A stretch of 55,805 bases of DNA from contig NZ_PXZT01000017.1 in assembly GCF_003008695.1 (NCBI RefSeq), forward strand, positions 1 to 55,805, read 5' to 3'. This document shows, piece by piece, positions 12,238 through 50,171 of the stretch. The notes beneath the pieces were generated by a model, which saw only the letters and a program-made list of their open reading frames with translations, did no database searches and had not been told where the DNA came from. The position numbers were made by a program, and so were the translations under genes. Each line of letters starts with the position of its first letter. Position 1 is the first letter of the stretch. Source of the DNA: Trichococcus alkaliphilus. Lineage in GTDB: Bacteria > Bacillota > Bacilli > Lactobacillales > Aerococcaceae.

Positions 12238-12270
12238 AAGTTACTAGTAGAGAGAACAAATGTGGAAAAA

Positions 12271-12309
12271 CGGCATGCGACCGGTGGTTATCGGTCGCAT
12301 GCCGTTTTT
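12271..12309 (+). terminator. Terminator of the sppA-RDD operon
   Basis: A perfect 13-bp stem CGGCATGCGACCG (12271-12283) with CGGTCGCATGCCG (12292-12304), an 8-nt loop, then T5. Confidence 0.93.
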
Positions 12310-12334: not shown

Positions 12335-12515
12335 TGGTCGGAGGAGAACGTGAATAATAGTGTTGAACTCCGGCGACGCCGTCGTTCGCCGGAGAAGAGC
12401 GGTAAACCACAGAATGTCCTCCGGCGAGGACCTGCTCATCGGAAGACATATATCACTCTTCCCTCTCCTCCGGGGAAGCTTGCTTTAACCGAAGGAGGCG
12501 GCAGCGCACCGCTTT
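12335..12515. repeat. Hairpin repeat array, family B (three units plus a half)
   Basis: Units start at CTCCGG at 12368, 12419 and 12468 (spacing 51 and 49 bp). Each is an imperfect hairpin followed by a spacer of about 22 bp; the first is CTCCGGCGA (12368-12376) with TCGCCGGAG (12386-12394). The block before 12368 (GGAGGAGAAC...) matches the 3' half of a further unit. The array fills the gap between the RDD terminator and the YtrA-type gene promoter. The same units recur at 32980 and 50021. Confidence 0.75.
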
Positions 12516-32866: not shown

Positions 32867-32871
32867 GCAAA

Positions 32872-32920
32872 CAAGAAAGGCAGACTGGAGCGATTACGTT
32901 CCGTCTGCCTTTCTTGTTTT
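32872..32920 (+). terminator. Terminator of the murA-mbl region
   Basis: A perfect 14-bp stem CAAGAAAGGCAGAC (32872-32885) with GTCTGCCTTTCTTG (32903-32916), then T4. Confidence 0.85.
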
Positions 32921-32975: not shown

Positions 32976-33130
32976 TGTGCTCCGGTGGGCGAAGGCTTCA
33001 CCAGAGCACAGACGCAATTTGGCGAGCGAACTCCTGCGAGGATGGCCTCGCAGGAGTTCGCCCCGATATCAACTAGTCTCCTCCGGCAAGCGGATGCCTT
33101 GCCGGAGCTGGGGATCGTTTCCGCAGTTGT
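32976..33130. repeat. Hairpin repeat array, family B (three units)
   Basis: Units start at 32980, 33031 and 33081 (spacing 51 and 50). Unit 1: TGTGCTC plus GGTG pair with CACC plus GAGCACA (32976-33010). Unit 2: a perfect 15-bp stem CGAACTCCTGCGAGG/CCTCGCAGGAGTTCG (33027-33060). Unit 3: a perfect 10-bp stem CTCCGGCAAG/CTTGCCGGAG (33081-33107). It lies between convergent transcription units, after the mbl-side terminator. Stems are kept although sequences vary, which suggests compensatory change. Confidence 0.78.
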
Positions 33131-33195: not shown

Positions 33196-33245
33196 AAAAA
33201 GCGAAGACAATCAGCATCACTCTGCTGGTCGCCTTCGCTTTTTTC
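33196..33245. terminator. Bidirectional terminator next to clpP
   Basis: Outer arms AAAAAGCGAAG (33196-33206) and CTTCGCTTTTT (33233-33243), inner arms CAGCA/TGCTG. It serves clpP on the minus strand and stops plus-strand read-through. Confidence 0.9.
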
Positions 33246-34452: not shown

Positions 34453-35547
34453 GTGTCGGTTATGCCAAGTATGCATATGGATAAGGAAAGCTTGGAGGAA
34501 TCGCTGAGGCTGGTGGGATACGACAATGAAGAATTGTTCGCTTATTTTCAACAAAAAGCGTTAGGCAATCCTTTGATTGAAGTGAAAATCAATAAAGAAT
34601 TCGATGAACGCGCTGTAAAAGAAAAAACGGTAGTGTATAAGCCGGATAAAGATGATTCGATGGACACGGTTTCCGCTATGGATCAGGTCTTTGAAGAAGT
34701 GCCGGCGTTGGATACATTCTTATTGGAACAAATCTATGCAAATATGCGGGACACGCCCTTGCGCGACTTGGTTTTATTTTTGGTGGCATTCATCAATCCG
34801 GAGGGGTACGTCACTATCGATCTGGATGAAGCCGCGGAACAGAAGGGTGTCGAACCGATCGTGATGCTGGATGCGTTGACGCTGCTGCATCAATTGGATC
34901 CCCCTGGTATCGGGGCCCGAAATCTGCAGGAATGTCTGATGCTGCAAACGGAACGCGATGAATATGCGCCGGAAATAGCCTATTATATTCTGGAGAATTA
35001 CTTTACGGCTTTCAGTGACAAAAACTGGCAAGCAATTGCGGACGAGATGGATGTGGAACTGACTGACGTGAAGGCGGTATTTGAGTATGCCCAAACCTTG
35101 GACCCGACACCTGGATCAGCATTCGGCGATAACAGCATTTCATTGCCCAGGCCGGATCTTTACCTACAACTGGTGGATGGGCATCTGACAGTGAAATACA
35201 ATGAGTGGGCTTCTCCTTTCATTGTTTTCCAAAAAGAATATTATGAAGAGATGATGCAGCACGAAGATGAGGATGTGCAACAATTTCTGGCAGCGAAGAA
35301 AACGGAGTGGGAGCAACTGCGGTCGGCAGTTGCATTCAGAAAAGAGTTGTTACTTGCAGCGGGAGAATTGATCTGCGGTTTGCAGAAAGGCTTTTTCCTT
35401 GAAGGCCAGGAATTGGAGCCGCTCGATGTGACACGTTTGGCAGAAGATTTGGCGGTCCCGGTGACTGTTATGCGCGAAGAAATATTGGAGAAAACGATTG
35501 AAACGGACCGCGGGACATTTTTGTTGCACCAGTTATGCGGTGAATAG
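34453..35547 (+). CDS. rpoN: RNA polymerase sigma-54 factor, C-terminally truncated
   Basis: A 364-residue sigma-54 protein. The core-binding region is clear: LDPPGIGARNLQECLMLQ near residue 150 and AQTLDPTPGSAFGDNSI near 217. Functional sigma-54 proteins of Firmicutes are about 430-460 residues and end in the RpoN box (ARRTVAKYRE), which reads the -24 promoter element. This frame stops at LLHQLCGE, before that domain. The N-terminal region I is also atypical, without the usual glutamine-rich start. Decayed remains of the missing domain follow (35550-35699). The product could bind core polymerase but should not recognise -24/-12 promoters. No sigma-54 activator gene is in the window. GGAGGG precedes GTG 34453. 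Confidence 0.88.
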   Translation: MSVMPSMHMDKESLEESLRLVGYDNEELFAYFQQKALGNPLIEVKINKEFDERAVKEKTVVYKPDKDDSMDTVSAMDQVFEEVPALDTFLLEQIYANMRDTPLRDLVLFLVAFINPEGYVTIDLDEAAEQKGVEPIVMLDALTLLHQLDPPGIGARNLQECLMLQTERDEYAPEIAYYILENYFTAFSDKNWQAIADEMDVELTDVKAVFEYAQTLDPTPGSAFGDNSISLPRPDLYLQLVDGHLTVKYNEWASPFIVFQKEYYEEMMQHEDEDVQQFLAAKKTEWEQLRSAVAFRKELLLAAGELICGLQKGFFLEGQELEPLDVTRLAEDLAVPVTVMREEILEKTIETDRGTFLLHQLCGE

Positions 35548-49943: not shown

Positions 49944-49982
49944 CGCGCCTGCATTCCTGATGGAGTGCAGGCGCGTTTTTTT
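49944..49982 (+). terminator. Terminator of smpB
   Basis: CGCGCCTGCA (49944-49953) pairs with TGCAGGCGCG (49966-49975), followed by T7. Confidence 0.92.
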
Positions 49983-50020: not shown

Positions 50021-50171
50021 CTCCGGCGAAGCCGCCCTTCACAGGAGGAGAACGGAGGATTTCGCAATCACCTCCGGAGAGGCAGTCTTCGCAGGAGGAG
50101 AGCGGCGGAATCCACATTCAACTCCGACGAGGCAATCCTCGCCGGAGTTGGCAACCAGAACGGAGCTGGCT
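50021..50171. repeat. Hairpin repeat array, family B (three units)
   Basis: Units start at CTCCGG/CTCCGA at 50021, 50072 and 50122 (spacing 51 and 50). The third forms CTCCGACGAGG/CCTCGCCGGAG (50122-50132/50137-50147), 10 of 11 pairs. The first two share AGGAGGAG followed by A(A/G)CGG in their 3' halves, also seen just upstream of the 12368 unit. It directly follows the smpB terminator. The gap 50172-50378 holds only the fbp leader. Confidence 0.75.

Follow-up and report, generated by a model that had tools for sequence, protein, structure and literature searches.

Trichococcus alkaliphilus carries a large family of intergenic palindrome arrays that appear to be maintained for their sequence and not for the hairpins they can form. 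Three of these arrays lie in the 55,805-nucleotide stretch analysed here, referred to below as the window. We favour, tentatively and at a little below an even chance, the reading that the arrays are phased double-stranded DNA sites for a putative dimeric, sequence-specific protein, perhaps with a role on the scale of the chromosome. This is close to the supercoil or nucleoid site that was among the options listed in the original prediction.

The window contains nine dyads at three sites, starting at exactly the positions predicted, and no strand is assigned to any of them. Array 1 has dyads at 12368–12394, 12419–12444 and 12468–12494 (27, 26 and 27 bp), array 2 at 32980–33006, 33031–33056 and 33081–33107 (27, 26 and 27 bp), and array 3 at 50021–50047, 50072–50097 and 50122–50147 (27, 26 and 26 bp). 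The unit spacing, predicted as 49–51 bp, was measured as 51/49, 51/50 and 51/50 bp in arrays 1, 2 and 3 respectively. The arms of the second dyad of array 2 extend into a perfect inverted repeat of 16 bp with a 4-nt loop (33026–33061); a perfect stem had been described here, but as 15 bp at 33027–33060, while the 10-bp stem described at 33081–33107 was found at that length. Folding of the three arrays beats that of shuffled sequences on both strands, with z scores of −3.1 to −7.1; these good energies are given by the palindromes themselves.

Array 1 separates a tandem pair, an RDD-family gene and a GntR regulator; array 2 is flanked by the region downstream of mreB/mbl on one side and by a convergent clpP on the other; array 3 separates smpB from a fructose-1,6-bisphosphatase gene, again in tandem (the RDD-family gene, clpP and smpB were identified using Pfam). 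An inverted repeat with a T run precedes each array, as had been noted from the sequence. These terminator-like hairpins are on the forward strand, at 12266–12309 (3′ of the RDD-family gene), 32869–32919 (upstream of array 2) and 49944–49975 (3′ of smpB); at the convergent site the reverse strand carries a further one at 33196–33243, which lies 3′ of clpP and flanks array 2 from the opposite side. Sequences similar to the clpP hairpin (33196–33244) occur elsewhere in several genomes of the genus, on both strands and with scores up to about 54 bits, and perhaps form a dispersed terminator family. A separate stretch of about 139 bp within an open reading frame (34865–35003) has copies of 76–83% identity elsewhere in most genomes of the genus, which probably represent a paralogous domain.

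The palindrome units exceed chance and belong to a large family. The pattern CTCCGG-N8-24-CCGGAG occurs at 89 places in the 2.96-Mb genome, compared with 6 for the reversed control. A profile scan of 294 kb of loci, most of them fetched because they hold matches, identified 73 arrays with at least two dyads, a lower bound for the genome, whereas the same 294 kb reversed contained no such array and two single dyads. Three dyads are present in 53 of the 73 arrays, four in 11, two in one, and 5–16 in the remaining eight. The scan scored positions 1–9, allowed dyads of 25–28 bp and extended arrays in steps of 48–53 bp; within these limits 276 of 278 dyads measure either 26 bp (154) or 27 bp (122). 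The wider pattern CTCCGG-N8-24-CCGGAG, which allows 20–36 bp, gives the same result, with 48 of the 50 listed forward places being 26 or 27 bp. The variable spacer that had been put at about 22 bp is 24 bp long in 144 of 200 spacings shorter than 60 bp (25 bp in 35, 23 bp in nine, 10 or 11 bp in nine, and other lengths in three). There is also a difference between the ends and the middle of the elements: in 82 elements, end dyads are 27 bp in 108 of 164 cases, and inner dyads 26 bp in 97 of 106.

A covariance model built from 33 arrays gave 150 scored matches over both strands, all with E < 1e-11, and matched many arrays on both strands. The model searches scored the best 150 of 626 candidates in the window's genome, 676 in G005 and 921 in G001 (two complete genomes of the genus), and their counts are thus lower bounds. 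An array at C1:75098-75204 that was shown by the pattern search is absent among the model matches listed; in a 59-kb stretch of G005, all three of the three-dyad arrays from the dyad scan are also among the model matches. The prediction of a dispersed family with one architecture and a conserved spacing is therefore borne out by many further copies. The units vary both between and within arrays, in keeping with the earlier remark that they are too degenerate for CRISPR: a direct-repeat search of the three sites returned one pair, at 78%, and CRISPR was rejected because the units are not near-identical.

Dispersed copies within one genome reach 88% identity over 155 bp, and several of the longer runs consist of repeated three- or four-dyad blocks, with periods of 181 and 189 bp. 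We note runs of 21 and 16 dyads with module-like repeats at L228 5726–6837 (from Trichococcus flocculiformis DSM 2094) and L105 7843–8616, which suggest tandem amplification of whole blocks.

The pattern CTCCGG-N13-17-CCGGAG is found at 28–267 places in each of 13 out of 13 genomes of the genus. Among 47 relatives from the family and order, 44 lack it and three have it at 1–2 places (control 0–1). In 398 genomes from the phylum, the array pattern gave 48 and 45 matches in the window's genome and 1–2 per strand in 18 others, which is of the order of the control. In a wider contig collection it occurs at at least 116 loci, of which 34 are from Trichococcus, seven from ‘Sedimentibacter sp. SX930’ and 75 from other organisms. 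No three-dyad array was present in these 75 loci among the matches listed, and the 21 contig loci that do contain three-dyad arrays are all records of Trichococcus or ‘Sedimentibacter sp. SX930’, in a listing that leaves out 20 of the 34 Trichococcus loci. The ‘Sedimentibacter sp. SX930’ record (MUZD01000001.1) is most likely a misnamed Trichococcus. One of 109 viral loci (L337) has three dyads, but was rejected because its spacing of 49/68 is unlike that of the family. In the searches made, the arrays thus appear to be confined to Trichococcus, with no detection outside the genus. A literature search, with subscription journals mostly outside it, found no paper titled on such repeats or palindromes in Trichococcus.

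The consensus of 552 half-sites, read from the outside inwards, is YSWN-CTCCGRYSARS. Position −2 is either A (0.50) or T (0.48), and the two arms of a dyad choose between these freely (AA 77, TT 77, AT 59, TA 52). Because the dyad scan scores only positions 1–9, the constraint at −2 cannot have been made by the scan; conservation at positions 1–9 may be somewhat enhanced by it. We compared the window loci in 24 genome–locus rows from 10 genomes, having dropped G004 and G005 at locus C (the site of array 2), where their arrays are incomplete. Divergence is 1–19% at positions 1–6, 4% at position 9, 12% at position −2 and 41% at position 7; outside the core it is 39% at spacer centres and 40–50% at positions −8 to −4. 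A similar pattern is seen in 13 further orthologous pairs, which are the array-bearing pairs left after six of 19 with unequal dyad numbers were dropped. Here positions 1–4 diverge by 1–4% and positions 5, 6 and 9 by 11–13%; position −2 diverges by 6%, four of the five changes being between A and T. Spacers diverge by 24% and positions −8 to −4 by 24–45%. Positions 7, 8 and 10–12, at 20–29%, are about as free as the spacers, and the strongly kept half-site is therefore short. The two members of a pair agree in length at 36 of 40 dyads and at 22 of 27 spacers. Both comparisons draw on related genomes and are not independent.

The original prediction took the arms to differ while still pairing, and saw in this a suggestion that the fold is under selection. 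This was not upheld, since the arms proved to be nearly independent, both in 274 dyads and in the alignment of 33 arrays. In the dyads, stem positions 7–11 show independence between the arms, with mutual information about at the level of shuffled data. Pairing is modestly above chance at position 6 (181 vs 156 ± 7) and position −1 (101 vs 80.5 ± 7.3), and below chance at position −2 (111 vs 132.7 ± 8.2) and position 12 (55 vs 84.3 ± 7.5). In the 33-array alignment, 85.6% of cells are paired compared with 85.0 ± 0.5 after shuffling, and 52 of 500 shuffles have a covariation score as high; over five measures, the observed value was reached by 56, 70, 61, 158 and 52 of 500 shuffles. Neither paired cells nor covariation in this alignment clearly exceeds chance.

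Changes between orthologous arrays give a comparable result. At positions 1–6, one-sided changes that break or make a pair outnumber two-sided pair-keeping changes by 265 to 4 in the window loci and by 25 to 1 in the 13 further pairs, although two-sided changes are rare under independence as well. Two-sided changes at positions 1–10 of the window loci are near or below the independent expectation overall (0 vs 9.2 at position 6 and 42 vs 43.0 at position 7), being slightly above it only at position 5 (8 vs 5.7). Just outside the core, at positions −3, −2 and −1, the window loci have 24, 13 and 38 two-sided changes compared with 10.0, 3.7 and 21.3 expected, and 23, 13 and 14 of these keep the pair; the 13 other pairs have only 0, 0 and 1 pair-keeping two-sided changes at these positions. 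The excess is partly due to locus C of G012, where comparison with G000 by eye shows two double changes, both of which preserve pairing, next to the first dyad. The prediction had named three observations that would speak against it. A lack of compensatory changes is largely what we find; a lack of further copies and a lack of conserved spacing are not.

These results bear directly on the possibility that the arrays are structured RNA at mRNA 3′ ends, where hairpins produced by read-through would stabilise, process or sequester the RNA. In its favour are the strong folding, the position behind genes and terminators, and the pair-keeping double changes beside the dyads in the window loci. Codirectional sites, read in the sense of the upstream gene, have 120 G.U and 89 A.C, and this slight excess is a weak hint in the same direction. 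Against it, stem covariation is not clear. There is no strand heterogeneity between arrays in G.U versus A.C (χ2 74.8, df 71), and so even a distribution is unlike transcription of one strand. The dyad and spacer lengths are nearly fixed, which hairpin loops would not need. Moreover, 34 of the 69 arrays that could be placed are convergent, and Rfam at its gathering threshold found only a tRNA in the window and no match at the arrays. We rejected a structured RNA family on the grounds that compensatory changes in the stem do not go beyond chance, the exceptions being positions 6 and −1 and, in the window loci, −3 to −1; overall, an RNA element seems to us improbable.

The arrays are placed behind genes, often behind terminators, and away from promoters. 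Using simple open reading frame calls, and dropping three arrays at locus edges, 69 arrays with callable neighbours comprise 34 convergent, 31 codirectional and 4 divergent sites, compared with 18, 41 and 18 among 77 intergenic regions that lack arrays and are 100 bp or longer. A simple script detected a terminator-like hairpin between gene end and array at 40 of 99 facing gene ends, against 17 of 77 in the background, which extends to the family the tendency to follow terminators first described in the window. The hairpin ends within 65 bp of the array in 35 of these 40 cases, and lies within 103 bp in 37. Such a placement could indicate local transcription insulators, in which bound protein acts as a road-block against read-through between convergent or tandem genes. 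The abundance of convergent and scarcity of divergent sites, and the closeness of the terminator where one is found, are what insulators would give, but they explain neither the preference for three dyads nor the array-free zone described below, in which convergent regions are equally common. We consider insulators very improbable.

The arrays are not found throughout the chromosome. The largest gap between model matches is 602 kb in G005 (81 places) and 866 kb in G001 (95 places), the next largest being 206 and 198 kb. When places within 20 kb were counted once, leaving 42 and 41 places respectively, a gap as large as this has a chance of 0.003 in G005 and 0.0002 in G001; the two genomes are related, and these values are not independent. 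Twenty 20-kb stretches (400 kb) from each gap contained no array with two or more dyads, and only a few weak single dyads. The best dnaA matches are at 1.648 Mb in G005 and 2.398 Mb in G001, while the GC skew changes sign within the gap, at about 0.17–0.20 and 0.70–0.76 Mb respectively. The skew switch is roughly opposite dnaA, so that the gaps abut or contain the terminus, and the dnaA positions rule out an empty zone centred on oriC. The zone is one-sided: about the skew switch it measures roughly 570 + 30 kb in G005 and 620 + 240 kb in G001, and what the two genomes share is the ~0.6 Mb of a single replichore nearest the terminus. The densest array clusters (2.425–2.454 Mb in G005 and 1.476–1.567 Mb in G001) are about 90–130 kb outside the zone.

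An explanation in terms of accessory genome is disfavoured, because 16 of the 20 stretches from G005 can be aligned in a single order with those sampled from G001, at mean identities of 84.6–92.5%. Convergent intergenic regions number 8.0 and 9.8 per 100 kb in the zone, compared with 8.3 in stretches syntenic with the window. In the window's genome, contigs C11 (at least 331 kb) and C12 are not among the listed matches to the pattern CTCCGG-N8-24-CCGGAG or to the covariance model, and single gene matches suggest that they belong to the zone. Array L025 of this genome is absent at its counterpart inside the larger gap of G001. The one-sided zone and L025 both speak against a simple terminus rule.

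Single arrays are not always retained. Counting the window's own genome, array 1 is present at the same place in 9 of 11 genomes of the genus and array 3 in 9 of 11. All of array 2 is retained in 6 of 11; G004 has two of its dyads, G005 has one and three genomes have none. What look like remnants of arrays 1 and 3 persist in G008. The flanks of a fourth site, near window position 2130, were found in 10 genomes, and of these only G002, G005 and G012 have an array there. Since single arrays are lost in some genomes, none need be essential. In 22 further orthologous flank pairs, dyads are present on both sides in 19 and not in three, a ratio that is biased upwards because most partner loci were fetched as holding arrays. 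Alignment of two empty orthologous sites, L176 and L374, gave junctions that are not clean, and some losses leave remnants. In G001 the match to locus C is split in two by about 8 kb (G001:C1:302781-310689), and array 2 was not found there.

The main rival to a protein site is an old non-autonomous mobile repeat, similar to REP/BIME, MITE or EFAR and now decaying, whose copies were spread to preferred sites behind terminators by a transposase since lost or not recognisable as such. We consider this somewhat unlikely. The high identity of dispersed copies within one genome, the tandem duplication of whole modules of 3 or 4 dyads, the presence or absence of arrays at locus A and at L032/L176, and the preference for gene 3′ ends are all consistent with mobility, and the 27-bp end dyads and 26-bp inner dyads imply elements with defined ends. 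However, decay would strike half-sites and spacers equally, whereas at orthologous places it is the half-site cores that are better conserved, and gene conversion would bring the spacers along. The sites aligned have neither a clean empty site nor a target duplication, and a mobile repeat leaves some 0.6 Mb of core sequence without arrays unexplained. All Y1 transposase matches in the genome fall in a single broken gene, whose 3-kb loci contain no dyad. This gene (L103 / G000:C9:9597-9949) is IS200-like and was matched in two pieces, one of which has an in-frame stop.

We return to the reading that we favour, of phased sites for a dimeric protein. One site would be a pair of inverted half-sites YSWN-CTCCGRYSARS, with cores 20 or 21 bp apart, or about two helical turns, such that a dimer could contact both on one face of the helix. 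The next site is 50–51 bp further on, and the putative protein would assemble on what are mostly three sites per array. We infer protein binding and the dimeric state from the independence of the half-sites, the indifference of the A/T position to orientation, the separation of the cores and the phasing. Indifference of A/T to orientation fits readout of the minor groove or of DNA shape. The number of arrays, the dispensability of single ones, their position off promoters and the empty zone together point to action on the chromosome scale, and not on neighbouring genes. The arrays may thus mark or organise those parts of the chromosome that lie outside the terminus-proximal domain, much as sites for nucleoid occlusion or nucleoid organisation do. 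The more specific proposal, of a genus-specific chromosome marking in which exclusion of the arrays from the ~0.6-Mb domain lets the putative protein on its three-dyad arrays distinguish that domain, is rather unlikely as it stands; if true, it could serve to time division or to organise segregation. A Noc model matched in 12 of 13 genomes of the genus, and none of the 13 reached the 315-bit cut-off (best 243.7). The main ParB/Noc-family match in G005 comes directly after a ParA-like reading frame, named by eye, and is probably ParB/Spo0J. The analysis yielded no candidate for the protein that would bind the arrays.

Sites for Noc of B. subtilis and SlmA of E. coli are described, in passages of PMC4726725, as palindromic double-stranded DNA that occurs chromosome-wide and is scarce in the terminus region; the same source gives about 70 sites for Noc, whose palindromic consensus is 14 bp long, and about 24–52 sites for SlmA. 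The Trichococcus arrays resemble these in being palindromic and scattered. The gap that they leave beside the terminus in two complete genomes is mostly in one replichore. They differ in consisting of mostly three long degenerate dyads and in having a one-sided empty zone.

REP/BIME sequences are short intergenic palindromes of high copy number, mainly downstream of coding regions and sometimes in clusters or tandem reiterations, and GTAG repeats are listed in Proteobacteria, Cyanobacteria, Chloroflexi and the PVC group, according to parts of PMC3733652. The Trichococcus dyads are likewise short, intergenic, high-copy palindromes downstream of genes, with tandem reiterations, but unlike REP/BIME (GTAG/CGTC) they are phased at 50–51 bp in mostly three units. 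We rejected a GTAG-type REP, because the 552 half-sites are flanked by the same YSWN whichever side is considered, without a one-sided GTAG or CGTC tag, and because no RAYT gene with flanking dyads was found, PF01797 matching only the broken Y1 gene on contig C9. Efa-1 (163, type I) is listed, and a pair of adjacent stem-loops described, in part of PMC2267715. Compared by description only, EFAR / Efa-1 of Enterococcus faecalis is similar in being an intergenic repeat with several hairpins, found in a lactic acid bacterium, but the Trichococcus arrays have three or four dyads in phase, and in these the half-sites are conserved and the arms show no clear covariation. A 2007 paper on EFAR reportedly describes modular assembly and integration into stem-loops.

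Dispersed bacterial palindromes are usually read as selfish hairpins or RNA elements. A simple test separates selection for a hairpin from selection for half-sites, and here the outcome is mostly half-site, in a family that avoids one chromosomal domain. If the protein is found, Trichococcus, a lineage with no detected dedicated Noc, would provide an independent example of sequence-encoded chromosome domains.
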